Shown here: piece by piece, positions 3,372 to 35,560 of the stretch
Position numbering within the stretch: the first letter of the stretch is position 1
How the letters are laid out: each line of letters starts with the position of its first letter
IMG/VR virus record: IMGVR_UViG_3300025132_000132
Coordinates: 1-35,560 of that record
Reading direction: 5' to 3' (one strand)
From: a virus
DNA length: 35,560 nt
Notes under the pieces: model-generated
Databases searched by the model: none
Seen by the model: only the letters and a program-made list of their open reading frames with translations
What the model was told of the DNA's origin: nothing
Made by a program: the position numbers and the translations under genes

Positions 3372-4998
3372 CTTTATCAAGAAGGGACCCTGTCCCGCAT
3401 GTCGTAAGGATGGTGAGGACTCCTCTGGAGACAACCTCGCCATCTACGACGATGGGCATGGGTTCTGTTTCAAGTGTGGTCATGTAACCTCGTCGGATTT
3501 CTCTGAGATTGATGACCTCGTTCAAAACATGGGACCGTCCCATAAATCAACAAGGAAACTAGAGATGCTAGGTACACCTGGACCAATCACTGATCGGAAT
3601 ATCTCCCAGAGAATAGTGGAGAAATTCGGAGTTACTCTGGAGTCCAACAAGCACCACTATCCCTACTTCGATAGGGACAGTAAGAATGTAGTGGGGACTA
3701 AGGTTCGCTCATGTGAAACTAAGGACTTCCATACCACTGGAACGATGGACAATACCATGCTGTTTGGTCAACAGTTGTGGTCATCCGGTGGGAAGTTTGT
3801 GACCATAACCGAAGGCGAGTTGGACGCCATGGCAGTGTCCGAAATGTTCGACGGGAAGTACCCTGTCGTAAGCATTAAACGTGGTGCCGCTGCCGCATCA
3901 AAGGACATCAAAGAAAATCTTGAGTGGCTGGAAACTTTTAACAAGGTAGTCCTTTGTTTTGATAACGATGCCGCAGGGAAGAAGGCTTCCCAGGAAGCGG
4001 TGCGTCTGTTCTCTCCCGGAAAGGCCAGGGTTGTTACCCTACCCATGAAGGATGCCGGTGATATGTTGAAGGCCGGTAAGGTTCAGCAATTTGTGAAGGC
4101 ATGGTGGGATGCCGATGACTACAAACCAGCCGGGGTTGTGTCCCTGTCGGATGAGAGCTGTTGGGATGCCTTTGTTACCCGTGGTAAAGCGGAGATCATA
4201 CCCTTTCCATCGTCCTTTGGTATGCTGAATAAGATGATGAACGGTGGGATGGGAGCAGGAGAGGTTACTGTCATTGGTGCATTAACTTCCGTAGGTAAGA
4301 CTACGTTTGTCACTAATCTTTTGTACGGTATGTACAAGGAAACGAACCGTAAGATCGGAGCGGTATTCCTTGAGTCCTCCATTGGAGAAACTACGGAGAA
4401 CGTAGTCGGTGTAGTTGGTGGGACTAATATCAAGGTGATACCTGAGGAGGAACGAGAGTACGACAAGTACCGTCCCTACTACGATGAGCTACAGGAGTCG
4501 GATCGTATACACCTGGACGATCATGCGGGGTCCTCCGACATTGACGATCTGTTCTCTCGTATGCGTTACCTAATCAAAGGCATGGACTGTGAAGTTATTA
4601 TTCTTGACCCATTACAGGCAGCGGTGCAGTCCAATGAGAACGGGATGATTGATGAGTTCATGGATCGTTGTCTTAAGATTGCGAAAGAAACCAACGCCGC
4701 CATTATCATTGTGTCCCACCTTAGGAAGCCAAGTGTCAAGGACCCTCATGATGTCAACGAGTACGACATGAAGGGTTCGGGTTCGATCAATCAGATAGCA
4801 TTTAACACGATCCTTTTGAGCCGGGACAAGATGTCGGACGATGAGTACGCCAGGAATTGTACTAAGGTACAGCTAGTGAAGTGTCGAAGGACGGGACGTA
4901 CTGGACATGCCGGTTGGTTGTACTATGAAACCGATACAAGCCGGATGGTTGCGGGAGTTTCTCCAGACGTAAAGGTAGTGGAAGATGAAGAGTTCTAG
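3355..4998 (+). CDS. DNA primase-helicase (T7 gp4-like)
   Basis: This bifunctional replisome enzyme makes primers and unwinds DNA ahead of the polymerase. Zinc-binding cysteines C13-C16 and C38-C41 form the primase zinc ribbon. The Toprim domain shows TEGELDA near residue 153 and FDNDAAG from D203. The RecA-like helicase shows Walker A GALTSVGKT (K315) and Walker B IILDP (D418), then IIIVSHLRKP. The length of 547 residues is close to T7 gp4 (566). A GTG at 3334 opens the frame earlier; ATG 3355 (or 3358) is preferred because AGGTGA and GGAG lie just before it and the added residues precede the zinc ribbon without homology. The start lies inside the end of the SSB gene, so the two are coupled. 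Confidence 0.93.
   Translation: MMRTSNFIKKGPCPACRKDGEDSSGDNLAIYDDGHGFCFKCGHVTSSDFSEIDDLVQNMGPSHKSTRKLEMLGTPGPITDRNISQRIVEKFGVTLESNKHHYPYFDRDSKNVVGTKVRSCETKDFHTTGTMDNTMLFGQQLWSSGGKFVTITEGELDAMAVSEMFDGKYPVVSIKRGAAAASKDIKENLEWLETFNKVVLCFDNDAAGKKASQEAVRLFSPGKARVVTLPMKDAGDMLKAGKVQQFVKAWWDADDYKPAGVVSLSDESCWDAFVTRGKAEIIPFPSSFGMLNKMMNGGMGAGEVTVIGALTSVGKTTFVTNLLYGMYKETNRKIGAVFLESSIGETTENVVGVVGGTNIKVIPEEEREYDKYRPYYDELQESDRIHLDDHAGSSDIDDLFSRMRYLIKGMDCEVIILDPLQAAVQSNENGMIDEFMDRCLKIAKETNAAIIIVSHLRKPSVKDPHDVNEYDMKGSGSINQIAFNTILLSRDKMSDDEYARNCTKVQLVKCRRTGRTGHAGWLYYETDTSRMVAGVSPDVKVVEDEEF
3529..3543. promoter_or_regulatory. Short palindrome ATGGGAC-C-GTCCCAT, copy 2
   Basis: A perfect palindrome with 7-bp arms around one base, inside the primase-helicase gene. 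It matches the copy at 11998 over 13 bases and is related to those at 1878 and 7038. Being inside a gene, it may be coincidental or an internal regulatory site. Confidence 0.4.
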
Positions 4999-5461
4999 GA
5001 ATACTAGAAAAAACAATACTATATCAATGGAAAGAGGGAGAAGAAATAGGTCCTTATATATTAAGAATAGAACAGGCTATCGGTGCGAATGTTGTGGCGA
5101 GGAATTTCCAGAGGAAGTTCTTGAGTTTCACCATCGTAATCCGGAAACTAAAAAGTTTGGTCTTGATGCTAAAGTATGGCGTAGAAAGTTAGCTTACCTA
5201 TACAATAAAGATGTTATTGCGGAAGCAGATAAATGTGTGATACTATGTAGTAACTGTCACAGGCTAGAGCATGTAGCTATAAAAAATGGTGAGACATTGA
5301 TAGATGACAAAGACGCTTATCATAGATATAGAAACCACCGTTATCCCTGTGAAGAATATATGGATGGTGGGAACTATGGACTTAGAGACAGGGATCAAGG
5401 AGAACTTTTTGAATCCCTCCCTAGAGAAACAAAAGATACAGGAGATGATAAATGGATTTGA
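4985..5461 (+). CDS. HNH endonuclease, likely free-standing homing enzyme
   Basis: The 158-residue frame carries a typical HNH nuclease: CECCGEEFPEEVLEFHH, then CVILCSNCHRLEH, with two CxxC zinc pairs around the catalytic HH and NCH. It starts 14 bases inside the helicase end and runs 158 bases into the polymerase gene in another frame, so its last ~52 residues are overprinted. Its AT-rich, AGA/ATA-rich codons differ from both neighbours, indicating later insertion. Such genes cut a phage lacking the insert and spread by repair. An ATG at 5026 is an alternative start without a ribosome site. Confidence 0.85.
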   Translation: MKSSRNTRKNNTISMERGRRNRSLYIKNRTGYRCECCGEEFPEEVLEFHHRNPETKKFGLDAKVWRRKLAYLYNKDVIAEADKCVILCSNCHRLEHVAIKNGETLIDDKDAYHRYRNHRYPCEEYMDGGNYGLRDRDQGELFESLPRETKDTGDDKWI

Positions 5462-8520: not shown

Positions 8521-8695
8521 ACAGTTCCTAAAAAGATTAGCGGTAGTCACTGATCCAGATTCTCTATGTGAGTTCTTAGATATCGAAAGTGGGGACATAA
8601 TAGAACGCTTCGATGATTTAATAGAGCAGAACATGGATAAACTCCGGGAAGAATTTGATATTGATTTTGATGAGGAGGAAATCCATGAAGGTTAG
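8504..8695 (+). CDS. Small acidic hypothetical protein
   Basis: The 63-residue product starts at ATG 8504, with GGAGGAC 9-15 bases upstream, inside the end of the resolvase gene. A longer frame from 8459 has no such site. It is mostly helical (PLPVEQFLKRLAVV; LCEFLDIESGDIIERFDDLIEQNM) with an acidic tail, FDIDFDEEE. Such acidic small proteins can be DNA mimics or partners, but I do not recognise a family. Its end overlaps the thyX start by 11 bases. Confidence 0.65.
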   Translation: MPLPVEQFLKRLAVVTDPDSLCEFLDIESGDIIERFDDLIEQNMDKLREEFDIDFDEEEIHEG

Positions 8696-9356
8696 TTACA
8701 TAGACCACATGGGTAGTGATCTACGTGTCGTTAATGCAGCCCGTGTATCCTTTGACAAGGTAAGCACATGGGAAAGAAGTGATTATAATCTTAACGATCA
8801 ATCTCTGGTAAATGTGTTACTGGATAAGGACGCTAAACTTATATGGTATCTGGCAAAGCACAAACACTGGACTCCTTTTGGTCACTGCCAAGCTACCTTT
8901 CGTATTCAAGCACCTATTTTTGTGGCCCGTCAGTTAGGGAAACATCAGGTAGGTATGGTGTGGAATGAAGTTAGCCGTAGGTATGTAGATAGTGACCCTC
9001 GATTTTACCGGCCTACTGAATGGAGAAAACGTGCTAAGAATATAAAGCAAGGTAGTAGTGATGAAACTATTAATTACTCTGCTGCACCGTTGTACGCATA
9101 CGCTTTGCAATGCTACTCAAATATGATAGCTGATGGCATCTGCCCTGAACAAGCCCGTATGGTGTTACCACAAGCTATGTATACCGAATGGTACTGGACA
9201 GGTTCCCTAGCTGCATGGGCCAGAGTATGTAAGCTAAGACTTGACCCCCATACACAAAGGGAAACCCAAGAAGTTGCTAAGATGCTTGACAAAGAGATGG
9301 TTAAGCTATATCCTATTAGTTGGAAAGCATTAATGGAGATGGACAATGACAACTAG
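8685..9356 (+). CDS. thyX: FAD-dependent thymidylate synthase ThyX, phage-type
   Basis: ThyX converts dUMP to dTMP using methylenetetrahydrofolate and FAD. The 223-residue length is typical. The signature region (residues 82-100) reads RQLGKHQVGMVWNEVSRRY. The NEVSRRY half is conserved, while the canonical RHRxxS half is KHQVGM with one extra residue, a variant I recall from marine phage ThyX. HWTPFGH earlier is also family-typical. The ATG at 8685 follows GAGGAGG; a frame opening at 8655 is rejected. It pairs with the RNR downstream for dNTP supply. Confidence 0.9.
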   Translation: MKVSYIDHMGSDLRVVNAARVSFDKVSTWERSDYNLNDQSLVNVLLDKDAKLIWYLAKHKHWTPFGHCQATFRIQAPIFVARQLGKHQVGMVWNEVSRRYVDSDPRFYRPTEWRKRAKNIKQGSSDETINYSAAPLYAYALQCYSNMIADGICPEQARMVLPQAMYTEWYWTGSLAAWARVCKLRLDPHTQRETQEVAKMLDKEMVKLYPISWKALMEMDNDN

Positions 9357-9630
9357 AATGGAAAAGCTACGGGAAGCAGCGGGAGTAGATAAAGAAGAAG
9401 AAGAAAAATTGGACATGGTCAATAGCCCTCCTCATTATAATCAAAGGGGAGTCGAAGCTATAGATGCCATCCGTGCAGCTACGGATGATGGGTTTGAGTA
9501 TTACCTTCAAGGTAACATCATGAAGTACCTGTGGCGCTATCGTTATAAGAACGGTGTAGAGGATTTGAAGAAGGCTGAGTGGTATCTTAAAGCTCTTATA
9601 GAGGAGAAGTCCGATGGAAGAAGAGGTTGA
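9346..9630 (+). CDS. DUF3310 protein
   Basis: The 94-residue product shows NSPPHYNQRGVEAIDAI, GNIMKYLWRYRYKNGVEDLKKAEWYLKALIEE, the clear DUF3310 pattern (also called SaV-like). It is common in phage nucleotide-metabolism clusters, often beside thymidylate synthase as here; its reaction is not established. The N-terminus is acidic (KEEEEK). It overlaps thyX by 11 bases and the next gene by 17. Confidence 0.85.
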   Translation: MTTRMEKLREAAGVDKEEEEKLDMVNSPPHYNQRGVEAIDAIRAATDDGFEYYLQGNIMKYLWRYRYKNGVEDLKKAEWYLKALIEEKSDGRRG

Positions 9631-9850: not shown

Positions 9851-11551
9851 ATGTATGGTAAGAACTCTGTAGGACCAGCACTCAAGGCCTGTGACGATCT
9901 TCACGCAATGAAGTACCGATTACCCAATGAAAGTTTTGAGGAAGCAATCAATAGACAAGCAGGAGTAATGTCAGATGATGAAGAACATCGTAGAACGTAT
10001 AAAGAAATTACAATGGACATGCGGTTCCTTCCAGCGGGGCGTGTACAATCTGCTATGGGAAGTCCACGCAAGGTTACGGCGCTCAATTGTTTTGTTAGTG
10101 GGGTTATCGAAGACTCTATGGACAGCATCATGGCTAGAGCATCTGAAGCTGCTGAGACTATGCGGAGAGGAGGCGGCATTGGCTACGATTTCAGCCGTAT
10201 TCGCCCTCGCGGCAGCAGGATTGTCTCTCTTGACAGTTCTGCTAGTGGTCCCGTTTCGTTTATGTATATCTATGATGCAGTGTGCAGGACGATTGTTTCG
10301 GCGGGGCATCGACGTGGCGCGATGATGGGAATCCTTCGGGTAGATCATCCAGATATTGAGGAGTTTATCCGGGCCAAGAAGAACGATAACGATCTGACTA
10401 ACTTTAATATCAGTGTCGGAGTTACCGATGAATTTATGACGGCAGTAGAGAAGAACTCTACTTTCGATCTCAAGTTTAACGGGGAAGTCTACAGGACAAT
10501 CAACGCCGGTATGCTTTGGGATGAGATCATGAGGAACAACTGGGATTGGGCAGAACCCGGAGTTGTCTTTATTGACAGGGTTAATGAGGACAACCCTCTA
10601 AACTATTGTGAAGTTATTGAGGCAACCAATCCCTGTGGTGAACAACCACTACCACCCTTTGGATCGTGCCTTCTAGGAAGTTTCAACCTGGTTAAGTACG
10701 TCAACCCGGAGGACAAGACCTTTAACTTCCGTAAGTTTAAGGGGGACATTCCTCCCGTAGTACGTGCCATGGACAACGTAATTGACAGGACTGAGTACCC
10801 TCTGGACGCACAACAGAGGGATCATAAGAACAAGAGGCGTATGGGTTTGGGAGTTACTGCCCTAGCCAACGCTCTTACGCTTATGAATATTCGATATGGT
10901 TCTCCCGAATCCGTAAAGATTACTAGGAAGATCATGAAGACCCTTGCCTGTGTGTCCTATGAGGCAAGTTCAGACCTTGCGGTAGAGAAGGGTTCATTCC
11001 CTATGTTCAAAGCAGACAAGTATTTGAACAGTGGGTTTGTCTCTAGGTTACCTAAGGACTTACGAGAGAAGATACGAAAGCAGGGCATGAGGAATAGTCA
11101 CCTCACTTCCATAGCTCCCACTGGAACCATTAGTTTCACTGCCGATAATGTGTCCAGCGGTATCGAACCTGTGTTTGCACTACAGTACGACAGGACTGTA
11201 CAGTTAGAGGAGGGTCCCGCTGTAATGCCCATGAAGGACTACGTATATAACTTGTATGGGATAAAGGGAGAGACTACGGAAGACCTGGGTACTAATGACC
11301 ATCTTAATATTCAGATAGCAGTACAGCCCTACATTGATAGTGCCTGTTCCAAGACGATTAACGTAGGGGACTCCGTAACCTTTGAGGAATTTAAGGAGGT
11401 TTACTTTAAAGGATGGAAAGGGAAACTAAAAGGGGTAACGACATTCCGACTAGCCGGTAAGAGGTACGGTGTACTTAATACTACAGAACCAGACGGCGAG
11501 GGTGCCGCATGTTTCATTGATCCCGAAACTGGTCAGAAAGAGTGCGGGTAA
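9851..11551 (+). CDS. nrdJ: Class II (adenosylcobalamin) ribonucleotide reductase
   Basis: Reduces ribonucleotides to deoxyribonucleotides. The 566-residue enzyme has C80 (LNCFVSG) as first redox cysteine, RRGGGIGYDFSRIRPRG, and NPCGEQPLPPFGSC with N260, C262 and E264 as the radical-site residues. It also has TSIAPTGTISF and SSGIEPVFALQY. The last 15 residues contain a second cysteine pair (ACFIDPETGQKECG), likely the thioredoxin-reducible tail. No R2 or activase gene is present and the SSGIEPVF region is class II in type, so B12 use is inferred. This makes the host or its medium a B12 source. The stop overlaps the next start (TAATG). Confidence 0.9.
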   Translation: MYGKNSVGPALKACDDLHAMKYRLPNESFEEAINRQAGVMSDDEEHRRTYKEITMDMRFLPAGRVQSAMGSPRKVTALNCFVSGVIEDSMDSIMARASEAAETMRRGGGIGYDFSRIRPRGSRIVSLDSSASGPVSFMYIYDAVCRTIVSAGHRRGAMMGILRVDHPDIEEFIRAKKNDNDLTNFNISVGVTDEFMTAVEKNSTFDLKFNGEVYRTINAGMLWDEIMRNNWDWAEPGVVFIDRVNEDNPLNYCEVIEATNPCGEQPLPPFGSCLLGSFNLVKYVNPEDKTFNFRKFKGDIPPVVRAMDNVIDRTEYPLDAQQRDHKNKRRMGLGVTALANALTLMNIRYGSPESVKITRKIMKTLACVSYEASSDLAVEKGSFPMFKADKYLNSGFVSRLPKDLREKIRKQGMRNSHLTSIAPTGTISFTADNVSSGIEPVFALQYDRTVQLEEGPAVMPMKDYVYNLYGIKGETTEDLGTNDHLNIQIAVQPYIDSACSKTINVGDSVTFEEFKEVYFKGWKGKLKGVTTFRLAGKRYGVLNTTEPDGEGAACFIDPETGQKECG

Positions 11552-11994
11552 TGTTAAAATATTGGGACATACCTTTAGTTCAAGTAGGGATAGGACTTAT
11601 TGTATTTTACTTTGGACTAAAGATGTTTGCTGGTGGTATGAAGTCCATGGGAAATGTGGAACATTTAGAATGGTTTGTCTCTAATCCATATTGGATGTTT
11701 CTTGGAGGAATTATCTGTACACTATTATGGCAATCAAGTTCTCTTAGCACTACAGCAATTATAGGTTTGGTTGCTAGTGGATTTCTCCCGCTACCTAGTG
11801 CGATAGCCGCTGTACTTGGAGCAAACATTGGAACCACAGGAACAATTTGGTTAGCTGGGTTACTTGTTTCCGATGGGATGCCTAAGGGAGATACGTTAAG
11901 AATAGCAATGGTTCATACAGGAGCTAATCTATTTATGGCTATATCGTTATTACCATGGGTGCATCATATCTCTAGGTTTGTAGGCCGCTTTTAA
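11551..11994 (+). CDS. Half-size Na/Pi cotransporter-like membrane protein
   Basis: The 147-residue protein matches one repeat of the Na/Pi-cotransporter family (PF02690, NptA/YjbB). It shows GLIVFYFGLKMFAGGMK at about 15-31, the hallmark QSSS at 61-64 followed by STTAIIGLVASGFL, and GANIGTT at 90-96. About four hydrophobic segments are visible (8-31, 47-80, 83-106, 118-140). Host members usually have two such repeats, often with a PhoU domain. This one has a single repeat and could act only as a dimer or modulator. It is translationally coupled to nrdJ and is the last + gene. Phosphate uptake during infection is inferred. Confidence 0.8.
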   Translation: MLKYWDIPLVQVGIGLIVFYFGLKMFAGGMKSMGNVEHLEWFVSNPYWMFLGGIICTLLWQSSSLSTTAIIGLVASGFLPLPSAIAAVLGANIGTTGTIWLAGLLVSDGMPKGDTLRIAMVHTGANLFMAISLLPWVHHISRFVGRF

Positions 11995-12015: not shown

Positions 12016-12135
12016 TTAAACATCCCACCACTTAATTTTAATTATCTTGGAACCACAACGGGGGCAGAGAAATCTGTCCTCGTTTTCTTTTGGCTTCTCA
12101 TGGCCTCTGAAGAAACATATAATTCTATTCTTCAT
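12016..12135 (-). CDS. Small zinc-ribbon protein (DUF1660-like pattern)
   Basis: The 39-residue product begins MKNRIICFFRGHEKP and continues FLCPRCGSKIIKIKWWDV. The C-x4-H spacing followed by CPRCG resembles DUF1660-type phage mini-proteins with a C/H/C/C zinc site. It begins 2 bases after the stop of the large virion gene and ends 5 bases from the palindrome at the operon junction. No strong ribosome site is seen, so coupling is assumed. It is the last gene of the late operon. Confidence 0.6.
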   Translation of the reverse strand: MKNRIICFFRGHEKPKENEDRFLCPRCGSKIIKIKWWDV

Positions 12136-23549: not shown

Positions 23550-26261
23550 CTATCTCGCTCTTGCCTGTGCCACACCTGAGCCACCAAAGGGGCGCAGACC
23601 CCACGCCCACACTAACATGGGATCATCAGCGCCGCTGCCAAAAGCCGACCCGGCACTAGGACGCATCTTATATCCGTTGGCAGTTACATCTCCAATCGTA
23701 ATGCCGCTGTAACCTTTTTCGCCGTTGCTCCAGTTATAACGAATGTCCGTAGGGTTGCCGTTGCCGTTGCTGGTGTACGATGGAAATGTTGCAAAGAAAT
23801 CGTTGGAATTAGAAGAATCAATATTTCTCCATGCGACTAGGGACGCTGATCCACCGAAATGAATATAAGGACCATCACTCAACCCATTATGGGAATAGCC
23901 TACAAACGCGCTGAACCCTTCAATTTGCTCCCATACAATGACCCGATAGGTTCCGGACGCGAAGCTACTATTTAGTGTGACGTTGGTTCCATCTACCGTT
24001 ACAAGTTCGCTGGTTGACGCCTCTTGTACGTTAAAGCGGATGTTGGCCGAAGACATGTTTGGGTGTGACACATACCAATCGCCCGTACTATCTGACCTTT
24101 TCGCAACAGCTGTTTTTGCGCCACTCCCTAGACTATGGGCTTGGTTTGTCGCCGAGCCGTTACTATGGCTAATCTCTGCCGTGTAACACCCGTAAGTCGC
24201 ACCTACACGCCACGACCATGCAGAGTAGTTTACGCCTGACGCTAGGGTTAAGTCTGACCCTGCGGCGGCGTTTGTATTGAAGTGCATTGAATTCCCGCTG
24301 TCATCAGAAAACCGAACATCGTAATCTTCATTAGTTCCATCCTCACGCTTAAATACGTCGATAAATCCGCTCCACCCTGCACGTGCGTTGGCTAGGCTGG
24401 CTTCGATGGTATTCCCGTTTTCTAATGTGATTAACGCAAACCCATCATCAGGGTTATTCACCGTGGGAGCCGCAAGATTGGCGGTGTTTAAAGCAACCCC
24501 ACTGCCTTTTGCGCTATGGGTCCAATCTGCTGGATCAGCAAGAATAGTAACGTCTGTTTGACCACCGCCATCATTATTAAAGATTGAGTAGGCGTGACCA
24601 TCAGACGGCTTGTTATTAGCTAAAGTTAATGCACTACCGCGTATGCTGTCGTTGACATAAAAACTTACCTGATCGTTGGTAAGGTCCATGTCAATTCCAA
24701 TAATGTCTCCGTTGCTTAGTGACGCGCCGTTATTTTGCAGGACGTTATTATTGTATGTGTCACCGGCACTATCTATCCAAACACCAGTGCTTGAATTTGC
24801 CAAATAACCCATATAACCAACGCCAACAGGATTGTTGTGCGTTACATCATTGTACTTTAATTCAACGTAATACCTTCCAGAACTAACTCCCAAAGTGGCA
24901 AAGTGTGCGCTTCCGGCATTAAGACCTGATGAGAAGCGATTGGTGTTACCATATCTTAATATTGCATTACCTGTTCCAGCTTTGTGAATCGGATTCCACG
25001 TTATGTAATTACCAATGTTGCTACTAGCATTATCAGTGCATGTATCAGTGACTTGCTGCGCTGTGGTCATGCTGTTATCGGTAAAGTTGTTAGCAAAACG
25101 TGAAGAGTCACCAGTATAAAGACGCAACCCACTATACCAACCGTTGCCAGTTGCATCAGTGCTATCAATAGAAAACCGCCAATACCTATGAGCAGTTTGA
25201 CCAGTAATTAGGGTGCGTTGCTCACCCATTGGAGTGGCATTATCCGCAACGGTTAAGTTTTGATTTGTGTCAGTCCAATCACTACCATTGTCAGAATAGA
25301 ATATAGACCAAACTGCTGCTTGGTCATTTGATCCATCGTTTTCAACGATCCATCCGGCCCCTGTAATTGCCAAATCATTACCACTACCGAGGTCTACATC
25401 AACAGTTTGATTAGCCTCATCTCCTGTTAAATAGAAGCCATCTTGCGCTGTGTCATCATCAAGCACACCTGAACCACTAAAGTTATGTAACCCACCACCG
25501 GGATTAGTTGCTGTTCCACCTGAGATGTTTTGCTTGACGCCACCTCCCACTGCATCTGTGCCAGCGCCATTGCCTGTGCCAGGGGCTACTTTAAAATCTA
25601 GGTGGAATCCGTTTGTTCCGAAAGTTAGTCCAGACGGGTCTTTCGGAACCCAGACACCGTTATCGTCAAGTTCTCCAAAATCTGTAGAATCTAAATTATT
25701 CCCATCTATAAATACCATTTCGGCAATATAGCCATTCCAAAGATTATTATTTGAAAGAGCATAACGACCTACTTCGTGGTCAAAAGAGTTGCCTAAAGCA
25801 AATTCAAAATCCTGTACCGGATAGGTCTTAGTAGACAAGTCAGCGTCTTGTACTTGAACGCCGTTGATATAGAGCTTGATCGTTGAGACACTTGGAGTGA
25901 CGCTGTCGGTATTTGCGGATAAAACCAAGTGGGTCCAAGCTGTCGGGTCACGCAACACTCGCGACGTAATTAAATTTAATTTGTTTGTACTGTCTTGATA
26001 ATTGGCAATACGAATTGTGCCATCGGATTGCACCCAGAACATAAATTCCTTGTCACTACTGGTATCATCGCAGCTTAACAAAGTGCCAGTTGCGCCTAAT
26101 GCGCCTAGCTTAAACCAGCATGAAAATGTAAATTTTTTGCGGTTAGTGCCAGTGCCGCTAAATGTTTTATTTAGATAGTCAGAAGACCCATCTAACCAGA
26201 TAGCGTTTTCGATGGTGTAGCCAGCAGCACCAGTAGGTATCCCTGTAGGATAAACTAACAT
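23550..26261 (-). CDS. Tail adhesin / fibre with LamG-like and other lectin-type domains
   Basis: 903 residues, beta-rich and low in charge. Residues about 1-215 have the LamG/concanavalin form (WLDGSSDYLNKTFSGTG, FTFSCWFKLGALG, AWTHLVLSANT, IKLYINGVQVQ, YIAEMVFIDG). Next come a discoidin-like stretch (WSIFYSDNGSDWTD, YWRFSIDSTDA) and a SPRY-like stretch (GRYYVELKYNDV, GIDMDLTNDQVSFYVND). The C-terminal part ends in a Gly-rich DPMLVWAWGLRPFGG tail. Many Gly-Asn repeats suggest a carbohydrate-binding, trimerising fibre. The AT-poorer, more GC-rich codons of its last part differ from the rest. Host recognition is inferred. Confidence 0.7.
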   Translation of the reverse strand: MLVYPTGIPTGAAGYTIENAIWLDGSSDYLNKTFSGTGTNRKKFTFSCWFKLGALGATGTLLSCDDTSSDKEFMFWVQSDGTIRIANYQDSTNKLNLITSRVLRDPTAWTHLVLSANTDSVTPSVSTIKLYINGVQVQDADLSTKTYPVQDFEFALGNSFDHEVGRYALSNNNLWNGYIAEMVFIDGNNLDSTDFGELDDNGVWVPKDPSGLTFGTNGFHLDFKVAPGTGNGAGTDAVGGGVKQNISGGTATNPGGGLHNFSGSGVLDDDTAQDGFYLTGDEANQTVDVDLGSGNDLAITGAGWIVENDGSNDQAAVWSIFYSDNGSDWTDTNQNLTVADNATPMGEQRTLITGQTAHRYWRFSIDSTDATGNGWYSGLRLYTGDSSRFANNFTDNSMTTAQQVTDTCTDNASSNIGNYITWNPIHKAGTGNAILRYGNTNRFSSGLNAGSAHFATLGVSSGRYYVELKYNDVTHNNPVGVGYMGYLANSSTGVWIDSAGDTYNNNVLQNNGASLSNGDIIGIDMDLTNDQVSFYVNDSIRGSALTLANNKPSDGHAYSIFNNDGGGQTDVTILADPADWTHSAKGSGVALNTANLAAPTVNNPDDGFALITLENGNTIEASLANARAGWSGFIDVFKREDGTNEDYDVRFSDDSGNSMHFNTNAAAGSDLTLASGVNYSAWSWRVGATYGCYTAEISHSNGSATNQAHSLGSGAKTAVAKRSDSTGDWYVSHPNMSSANIRFNVQEASTSELVTVDGTNVTLNSSFASGTYRVIVWEQIEGFSAFVGYSHNGLSDGPYIHFGGSASLVAWRNIDSSNSNDFFATFPSYTSNGNGNPTDIRYNWSNGEKGYSGITIGDVTANGYKMRPSAGSAFGSGADDPMLVWAWGLRPFGGSGVAQARAR

Positions 26262-28537: not shown

Positions 28538-29470
28538 TTAGGCGGCGGGAACAGCAATCGCAACACCAGCGGTATCGCGAAGTTCACCTACACCATACAG
28601 GGTATCGGCAGTGAAGAGATCGCCAAGATATTCCTGCTTGTATTGGGTCTGAGAACGCACACCCATTTGCTCAACCAGAGCAAGAGCGTCTTTGTGCATC
28701 ATCACACCAAAGCGAACAGCAACGGAGTTCGTCGTTGTTCCTGATGGGCAGTTACTAGAAACAAATACGTCCATGCCGTAGATGCTACCAATTTTACCCG
28801 TCTTAATTGCATCACCGTCACCAATGAACTGTTGCTCAGTGAAACGGTTAATACCAAGCATATCGTTGGCTGCAACCGGAGGAATAACCATAACACGATT
28901 ATCCATCGGAACATCGGCGTTGTCCAGAAGAAGAATCATCTTCCGAATACCAGCATCCGCAATGTCGGCAGCGTTAGACGTACCACCTACAAAGTCCGTA
29001 GTACCATCACTACCAATCTTTGCTTTTTCAAAGAGTGACGCACCTGAACCACCTACGGTTCCACCTTGAAGACCTTCGATCAAAGTAAACAAGTCCGTAT
29101 CTACTTGCGTAGCAAGTGCATACCCAGCATCGTCGGTGTAGAACCGGCGAAGCGATTGGAGGGCCTGAACTTCAACAATGTCTTCAATGACTACGGAATA
29201 TTCGTAGTGCTTATTGATGGACAGTTGAACTTCATTATGCGTATCACCTTGCAGCGTAACTTGCGTGTTTGCTGCTTTAGCGTTAGCGGAACCACGTACT
29301 GGCGCAGGAATGTGAATCGTGTCACCTTTCTTACCAGCGTGATTAATTTTAGTAACGACATTACCCAGGACAAGATTTTTCTTGTACCCTGCAATAACTT
29401 CGTCTGACCACAACTCAGGAATAAATTTCGCTGCCGTTGTCGTAGTTTGTTGTGCAGTACCCAAAGCCAT
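28538..29470 (-). CDS. Major capsid protein
   Basis: 310 residues, HK97-fold type: N-terminal arm ALGTAQQTTTTAAKFIPELWSDEVIAGYKKNLVLGNVV, then KGDTIHIPAPVRGSANA, KHYEYSVVIEDIVEVQA. The P-domain and A-domain patterns RVMVIPPVAANDMLGINRF and SIYGMDVFVSSNCP, and MMHKDALALVEQMG, are typical of podovirus and other phage coat proteins. A strong AAAGGAGA lies before the ATG. It sits after the scaffold and before a terminator-like hairpin, as in other head modules. Confidence 0.88.
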   Translation of the reverse strand: MALGTAQQTTTTAAKFIPELWSDEVIAGYKKNLVLGNVVTKINHAGKKGDTIHIPAPVRGSANAKAANTQVTLQGDTHNEVQLSINKHYEYSVVIEDIVEVQALQSLRRFYTDDAGYALATQVDTDLFTLIEGLQGGTVGGSGASLFEKAKIGSDGTTDFVGGTSNAADIADAGIRKMILLLDNADVPMDNRVMVIPPVAANDMLGINRFTEQQFIGDGDAIKTGKIGSIYGMDVFVSSNCPSGTTTNSVAVRFGVMMHKDALALVEQMGVRSQTQYKQEYLGDLFTADTLYGVGELRDTAGVAIAVPAA

Positions 29471-32836: not shown

Positions 32837-34117
32837 TTAGTATCCTGCTACAGTGTCCATGGGTTCCCACTCGTCTACTTCAATTGATTGTGCAAAGTCC
32901 GCTACGGAAACTTGATCTATATACGCTAGTGAGTCCAATAAATCGTCGTGAGATAATGAGCTTGGAAAATCTAACATCTGACTAATAAAAGCATGGTTCC
33001 AATTGTCCTTACGAAATTTTATTTTACCATGCTCAAGTCGTCCTTGTAATGCCCAGACTATCCTATCTTGTTTCCTTTTACCTCCGTGGGTAACGTCAGT
33101 TATATTTAACCATCTATTTCTTACTCTCATCTCGTCTTCGATGTAGGGCATAATAGCATTTTTAAGTGCGCCAGCTTCAATTCCTACTGTAGTGGCCTTT
33201 ACATCATCAGATATTGTAATAATCTTTTCCGCCGTTTCTTTAATGTTCCACCTACCATGGTGAATATCCTTAACTAACCACTCATCTCCTACAATCTTAA
33301 CTACTGAAATAGCCGTTTCATCAAGTTTTGAAGACTTAAGACCTCTCCCCTTATCCGCTCTCTCAAATCCTGCCGGGTCAACCGAAACCACATAATGGCC
33401 CGTTTGAGTTGCAGTTTCATCATCAAATTCTTTATCGTCTGCATAACGAATCCACTCTTCTTGAAAAACTCCCCCAGAAAAACTTTCAAATGTCGCTTCA
33501 AATTCCTGGCGAAAGGCCTGAGTCGACATGTTTTTCTTGGCGGCGTCGATCTCTTTGGGGTCCAAAAAAGGATTATCTGTTGAAACAAACTGATAGGCCT
33601 CCCAATCCTCTTCGTTTTCTTTTAGTTGTGCGTCTATCCATAGTCTATGAAAATGATTTTTACCTGACGGAGTTCCTATAAATAACGCACCACCCTTAAC
33701 GTCTGCTAGTGTAGGTCTTAAGATCATCTCCCACACTTCGGGTTTCATTGAGGCGTATTCGTCCATTACAACATACGCTAAACCTACGCCTCTTAAGGTA
33801 TCTGGCCTGTCCGATCCCTTTAAATATATCTTTCGATCATTAACTAGAGTTATTGTTGCGGTATTTTCGTGAGTAGTTTTAATTACGTTTTGGCCTACGT
33901 CTTTTAAGATAGACCAAAGAATGTCCTTGGCTTGTTGAAATGTGGGGGCAACATAGAAGACATCTTTATCCTCACTTTGGAGTGCCTTAATAATTAGCAC
34001 CCATGCCGCTAAATAACTTTTTCCAAATCTTCTACCGCAACTTGCCACCTTAAATCTTTTTGGTGACTTAAAAATTTGCATCTGAGCGTCATGAAGAGTA
34101 ACTTTTAGGTCAGTCAT
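32837..34117 (-). CDS. Terminase large subunit
   Basis: 426 residues. ATPase: Walker A CGRRFGKSYLAAW (K33) and Walker B LAYVVMDEYASM (D119, E120), with coupling motif LFIGTPSGKNHFHRLW. Nuclease: YVVSVDPAGFE provides the first acidic residue, with TTVGIEAGALKNA and HDDLLDSLAYI near the end. It drives DNA into the prohead and cuts the concatemer. It overlaps the small subunit gene by 8 bases and directly precedes portal, the common order. Confidence 0.93.
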   Translation of the reverse strand: MTDLKVTLHDAQMQIFKSPKRFKVASCGRRFGKSYLAAWVLIIKALQSEDKDVFYVAPTFQQAKDILWSILKDVGQNVIKTTHENTATITLVNDRKIYLKGSDRPDTLRGVGLAYVVMDEYASMKPEVWEMILRPTLADVKGGALFIGTPSGKNHFHRLWIDAQLKENEEDWEAYQFVSTDNPFLDPKEIDAAKKNMSTQAFRQEFEATFESFSGGVFQEEWIRYADDKEFDDETATQTGHYVVSVDPAGFERADKGRGLKSSKLDETAISVVKIVGDEWLVKDIHHGRWNIKETAEKIITISDDVKATTVGIEAGALKNAIMPYIEDEMRVRNRWLNITDVTHGGKRKQDRIVWALQGRLEHGKIKFRKDNWNHAFISQMLDFPSSLSHDDLLDSLAYIDQVSVADFAQSIEVDEWEPMDTVAGY

Positions 34118-35271: not shown

Positions 35272-35300
35272 GGAATACCGCGCTTGACCCCTTAAGTCAA
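35272..35300 (-). promoter_or_regulatory. Second, weaker sigma-70-like promoter
   Basis: On the - strand, TTGACT (35295-35300), a 17-base spacer, then TATTCC (35272-35277), a poor -10. It lies upstream of the main promoter and repeats its AGTCAA/CTTAAG element, so it could be a tandem promoter or a duplicated regulatory site. Confidence 0.4.
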
Positions 35301-35418
35301 CCTTTATTTTTATTTGGGAGTTCTTTTTTATATAATTCATGGACTCCAAATTGCTTCTGATGTGGTCATGAGGGTTTATTATATAAAGCCAGCGGCCATG
35401 GGTCCCTCCCCGGGTCAA

Positions 35419-35513
35419 CCCAGGGAAACAAATGATCCCAGGGAACTTCTCAGGTTTTCCCAGGGATCACCAAGGGAACAGCATCCATGGGATTTCATGG
35501 GAATTCATGGGAT
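35419..35513. repeat. Cluster of seven CCAGGGA/CATGGGA-like repeats
   Basis: Nine-base units of form CCMWGGGAW: CCCAGGGAA at 35419 and 35437, CCCAGGGAT at 35459, CCAAGGGAA at 35470, CCATGGGAT at 35485, TCATGGGAA at 35495 and TCATGGGAT at 35505. Spacings are near 10, 10, 15, 11, 22 and 18 bases, so several fall on the same face of the helix. Such an array suggests iterons of an origin or operator. No known iteron type is recognised. Confidence 0.6.
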
Positions 35514-35560
35514 ACCTTGAGAAGTACAAAAGAAAGAACCCATGATAGTGGTTCTCAGGA

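Follow-up and report, generated by a model that had tools for sequence, protein, structure and literature searches.

The sodium/phosphate cotransporters of the SLC34, NptA and YjbB type have two inverted repeats in a single chain. In the SLC34 (NaPi-II) proteins, represented by the solved SLC34A2a (9z60) and related structures, the chain contains extra helices in addition to the two repeats. The YjbB/YqeW-type proteins of bacteria (TIGR00704, NF037997) are 310-590 residues long and often carry a PhoU domain, and each of their two repeats has a fixed charge bias opposite to that of the other. Two-repeat transporters are thought to stem from doubled ancestors that paired with themselves, and single-repeat proteins of dual topology are rarely observed (PMC9574504).

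Genes of this family are known from phages. PF02690 genes are present in eight genomes of HMO-2011-type subgroup I phages, for which phosphate uptake was proposed (Qin et al. 2022; PMC9038755), and yjbB is counted among the phage phosphorus genes in soil and estuary studies (PMC10987575). The gene described here is likewise a PF02690 gene carried by a marine phage, with phosphate import as its proposed role, and several of its relatives adjoin primase/helicase and polymerase A genes. The eight genes may belong to the family described here; the searched passages of PMC9038755 do not mention a single-repeat size, a missing second half, a large spread or T4-like phages. For the earlier note, no half-size gene of this kind was known. 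Its claim of novelty appears to stand for the half size, of which the searched passages of PMC9038755 and PMC10987575 contain no description, but not for phage-borne PF02690 genes as such. What appears to be new is the single repeat as a fixed and selected trait, its spread over phage lineages, the balanced charge and the fact that a second half is lacking.

The stretch of DNA analyzed (the window), an IMG/VR virus record that comprises 35,560 bases and is listed as linear, reads as the genome of a short-tailed phage. The early genes are situated on the + strand between 158 and 11994 and encode a GP88 protein, a primase/helicase, polymerase A, an endonuclease I-like protein, thyX, a DUF3310 protein and nrdJ, with the half-size Na/Pi gene as the last of the run. 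The late genes, which encode the terminase, portal, major head protein, lysozyme and a 1360-residue protein, occupy the - strand from 34493 to 12138. The polymerase (576 residues) is closest to that of pelagiphage HTVC104P (52%); its Pfam matches are limited to polymerase A and an exonuclease-type domain. A polymerase A that includes part of a DnaJ domain marks the HMO-2011-type phages, and such a partial domain might fall below the threshold here. Neither tRNA genes nor Rfam elements were found in the window. The features surrounding the transporter gene are the following.

8655 to 9356, + strand: thyX, flavin-dependent thymidylate synthase, upstream on the same strand (PF02511, E 5.3e-45)
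9346 to 9630, + strand: DUF3310 protein in the nucleotide-metabolism run (PF11753, E 1.9e-19)
9851 to 11551, + strand: nrdJ, class II (B12-dependent type) ribonucleotide reductase (PF02867, E 1.4e-119; phage class II RNR matches at 51-58% identity)
11549 to 11553, + strand: TAATG, in which the stop codon of nrdJ overlaps the start codon of the transporter, read from the sequence
11551 to 11994, + strand: half-size Na/Pi-cotransporter-like protein (single PF02690 repeat, E 1.6e-17; hundreds of viral contigs encode relatives of this size)
11728 to 11757, + strand: codons of WQSSSLSTTA (residues 60-69), the hairpin tip motif, which is identical in each of the 130 distinct phage proteins and aligns with the two QSSS motifs of SLC34A2a
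11818 to 11844, + strand: codons of GANIGTTGT (residues 90-98), invariant or nearly so in the 130 proteins and aligned to GSNIGTTTT of SLC34A2a repeat 2
12057 to 12084, + strand: terminator-like stem-loop of 12 pairs with a T-rich tail, 3' of the transporter and before the converging late genes (consensus scan only)

The ATG of the transporter and the TAA of nrdJ have one base in common (at 11551), an arrangement that probably couples the translation of the two genes. The join, already pointed out in the earlier note, is real both here and in the nearest relatives, where contigs L001, L002 and L014 have a TAATG, TAGTG or ATGA-type overlap with nrdJ. In L003 and L006 the stop-start linkage is carried by a 57-codon ORF that is inserted between nrdJ and the transporter and overlaps both genes. 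This ORF, at about 4825-5000 of the two contigs, encodes a small protein without assignment. Terminator-like sites were identified by a consensus scan, which found four in the region where 2.5 are expected.

The transporter gene is an open frame for a protein of 147 residues. It has one match to PF02690 (Na_Pi_cotrans), which spans positions 2-108 of the 137 in the model and scores 64.3 bits, well above the curated cut-off of 29.1. The QSSS hairpin and the G-x-N-I-G-T motif of the family are both present, so that the QSSS...STTA and GANIGTT signatures and the single repeat described in the earlier note are confirmed. The protein is thus a member of the PF02690/SLC34 fold family that has one repeat in place of the two inverted repeats of the SLC34, NptA and YjbB chains; neither a second PF02690 repeat nor a PhoU domain was detected by profile search in the window. 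The cut-offs of the NCBIfam Na/Pi models are not reached (54.7 of 210.1 bits for TIGR00704, 48.1 of 50 for NF037997 and 38.3 of 306.2 for TIGR01013), as would be expected of a half-size protein.

A profile of the phage family matches SLC34A2a (E 5e-20) in two stretches, residues 84-214 (41.4 bits) and 394-474 (38.8 bits). The phage protein therefore corresponds about equally to each SLC34 repeat, with which it shares the QSSS and G-N-I-G-T motifs. Both repeats of the YjbB/YqeW-type proteins are matched as well, with means of 35.2 and 30.6 bits over 29 two-repeat proteins from bacteria and bacterial-like viral contigs.

All 130 distinct proteins share the stretches WQSSSLSTTAI, LGAN and GTTGTIW without change, together with H122 and N126, and the gene is under purifying selection (median dN/dS of 0.13 in 121 unsaturated pairs). 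The Na3 site proposed for NaPi-IIa consists of Gln417, Ser418, Ser419, Thr451 and Thr454 (PMC6325988). When mapped through the SLC34A2a alignment, these residues appear to correspond to Q61, S62, S63, T95 and T98, respectively, all five of which are invariant in the phage family.

A single-chain structure prediction made with a deeper alignment (mean pLDDT 89.8, pTM 0.79) places helices at residues 8-32, 46-60, 63-75, 81-106 and 113-145. They would form three membrane spans and one hairpin, in agreement with the helix plan of the repeat unit in the published NaPi-II models. Since the spans are odd in number, a second copy could lie inverted in the membrane. Neither SLC34 nor DASS was among the structure-search matches of this model, all of which were weak and uninformative. 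An earlier model built from 17 close sequences had a pLDDT of 77.9, and fold searches with it gave nothing useful.

Proteins of dual topology can be recognized by a rule based on their Lys/Arg bias (PMC9574504). The sides of the membrane were assigned by combining the helix prediction with the topology published for NaPi-II. The core of the phage protein has a bias of +0.2 (range -2 to +2), whereas at the same alignment positions bacterial repeat 1 has +4.75 and repeat 2 has -2.64. When the C-terminal tail with its near-invariant R142 and R146 is included, the phage value is +2.2 (0 to +4), at or beyond the usual limit for dual topology. The sequence features fit the antiparallel dimer suggested in the earlier note, as the core is balanced in the way expected for an antiparallel homodimer with one chain in both orientations and no partner half was found in the records searched, but the tail makes the case borderline. 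The phage protein, with the antiparallel pairing proposed here, would resemble EmrE, the SMR proteins and similar dual-topology transporters in being a small transporter of one repeat. It has an unrelated fold, and its orientation is what we infer from the charges.

A scan of IMG/VR revealed relatives of the gene in no fewer than 516 stretches; the best 80 of them have 76-90% identity, and a second query added more divergent members of the family. The occurrence of relatives of the same size in so many stretches excludes chance. The 214 complete copies extracted from the fetched loci, representing 130 distinct proteins, are all 143-153 residues long, and their longest stop-to-stop frame is 202 codons. 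The uniform length together with the dN/dS of 0.13 rules out a truncated pseudogene. An assembly artifact, considered in the earlier note as a gene restricted to one contig with a chimeric junction, is likewise ruled out: the gene is found in hundreds of contigs, and the nrdJ junction recurs in contigs of several metagenomes.

Each of the 34 gene-bearing records searched, including those of 134 and 177 kb (one being the MAG of L082, described below), contains exactly one PF02690 match. Since only this one copy is present in records of up to 177 kb, a second half of the transporter was not seen elsewhere in these genomes, some of which are fragments. The C-terminal PhoU domain of the YjbB type is missing as well (no PF01895 match in the 17 records checked).

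The neighborhood of the gene varies. The flanks of 138 distinct copies fall into 63 left and 66 right clusters, forming 94 different pairs, and nrdJ is the left neighbor in five of the 138. The proposed tie of the transporter to nrdJ and dNTP synthesis consequently holds in the window genome but is local, not a general rule. In other settings the gene adjoins a T4-type major capsid protein, a T4-type DNA polymerase or a primase/helicase and polymerase A, or is found near class I RNR genes. From this pattern, the gene behaves as one that is passed among phage lineages. In L173 and its relatives the left neighbor, a protein of about 340 residues that resembles enzymes of the aminoacyl-tRNA-synthetase or asparagine-synthetase type, is a recurring one (11 distinct copies). 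There is no matching family in PHROGs v4 and no close relative among 50,697 phage records, in which the best matches have 33-44% identity and belong to unannotated records; routine phage annotation therefore probably misses the family.

Among 84,980 species genomes one close relative was found, L082, which is 73% identical and comes from a contig binned into a Chloroflexi MAG. This contig has phage-like neighboring genes, and a 99% identical copy is carried by the IMG/VR contig L159. The L082 contig also encodes isocitrate lyase-like and IMP dehydrogenase-like proteins. The cellular two-repeat relatives found are all distant (about 42% identical at best). The matches listed for 101 Chloroflexota and 149 Bacillota genomes belong almost without exception to frames of 270-720 residues. 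One of the rare shorter frames, L244, was rejected as a cellular half-size gene because it is a split gene whose second repeat is encoded by the adjacent ORF; two others are of 125 and 153 residues.

A phylogeny of the repeats unites the phage proteins in a clade of their own (99/98), separate from the repeat-1 clade (96/93) and the repeat-2 group of bacteria. It is therefore unlikely that they were recently shortened from the bacterial types sampled, which do not include marine Pseudomonadota. The SLC34 repeats lie near the phage clade on long branches, a placement that is not taken as a relationship. The phage form may be either ancient or derived.

In the reading favored here, which we hold to be about evenly balanced between right and wrong, the protein is a PhoU-less Na/Pi transporter of one repeat that pairs with itself and would raise phosphate uptake in infected cells. 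It would be a minimal yet complete protein of the PF02690/SLC34 fold, with three membrane helices and one re-entrant hairpin. Most likely, two copies in opposite orientations would pair and so rebuild a two-repeat transporter, to which each subunit would contribute a QSSS hairpin and a GANIGTT helix break; the Na+ sites would then be symmetric, and phosphate would lie on the axis. Lacking PhoU, the transporter would escape shut-down by the phosphate control of the host. Early synthesis alongside the DNA-precursor enzymes of the window genome would increase Na+-driven phosphate uptake during DNA replication, and the imported phosphate would feed nucleotide and DNA synthesis. The dimer, transport itself and its substrate, direction, timing and benefit are what we infer, the motifs pointing to phosphate as the putative substrate. 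A broader proposal, held with somewhat less than even confidence, is that this widespread family of marine phages keeps a self-pairing, one-repeat state of the SLC34 type, a functioning stand-in for the form before duplication and fusion, and that it is passed between unrelated phages as a PhoU-free gene for phosphate uptake.

The substrate and direction of transport could differ from this reading, since the family match defines a fold and Na+-site motifs but not a substrate, and the functional cut-offs of NCBIfam are not reached. As the cellular two-repeat relatives are all distant, the function could have drifted. In E. coli, phosphate export has been linked to YjbB-type proteins. An export or leak function, or the transport of a different anion, is nevertheless rather unlikely, because the protein has the QSSS and GANIGTT cores found in Na/Pi members, including the solved SLC34, and lacks the PhoU domain of the YjbB-type members. 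A use unconnected with transport, such as a block to superinfection or a change of the host membrane by a mere descendant of a transporter repeat, appears improbable. It would agree with the accessory-like movement of the gene between phage genomes and the absence of a fixed functional neighbor. However, the strictly invariant ion-site residues and the low dN/dS argue for a retained transport mechanism, and exclusion proteins usually vary fast.

The phage half might also be inserted in one orientation and pair with a repeat of a PF02690 protein of the host, which would thereby be changed in activity or released from control by PhoU. The one-sided charge bias obtained with the tail speaks for such a partner, as does the abundance of full two-repeat transporters in cells. 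Against it, the phage protein combines characteristics of the two repeats and retains the full set of five Na3-site residues, and no close sequence fit to any single bacterial repeat was seen. A specific host partner would, moreover, hardly serve a gene carried by such different phage lineages, and pairing of this kind is unlikely.

If the favored reading is correct, a natural one-repeat protein of the SLC34 type would make the idea of a self-pairing ancestor testable in a medically studied family, with 147 residues instead of several hundred. Phages of several lineages would then carry a sodium-driven phosphate importer of their own, beyond the usually counted pstS and phoH, in waters where phosphate can limit growth.

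Several other observations were made in the course of the analysis. Two full-length bacterial-type Na/Pi genes lie in tandem at 173-3677 of L152, a 79.7 kb virus-collection contig, and may represent flanking host DNA. A bacterial-type Na/Pi match is present in unannotated sequence of OR844989.1 and OR849875.1, which are named Staphylococcus phage; one of these records is 282 kb, and the matched sequence is possibly bacterial DNA. In the window, the terminase (32837-34117, - strand) and the major head protein (28538-29470, - strand) are matched in the 50,697 phage records by distant relatives only (at best 49% over half of the protein and about 37%, respectively), and these are therefore virion genes of a poorly sampled phage group. 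The late 903-residue protein at 23550-26261 (- strand) has laminin-G-like, DUF7483 and weak F5/8-type C matches and is probably a host-contact appendage. The right end of the window (35300-35560) contains few ORFs and several CCCAGGGA/CCATGGG-like motifs, which could be regulatory or related to replication.
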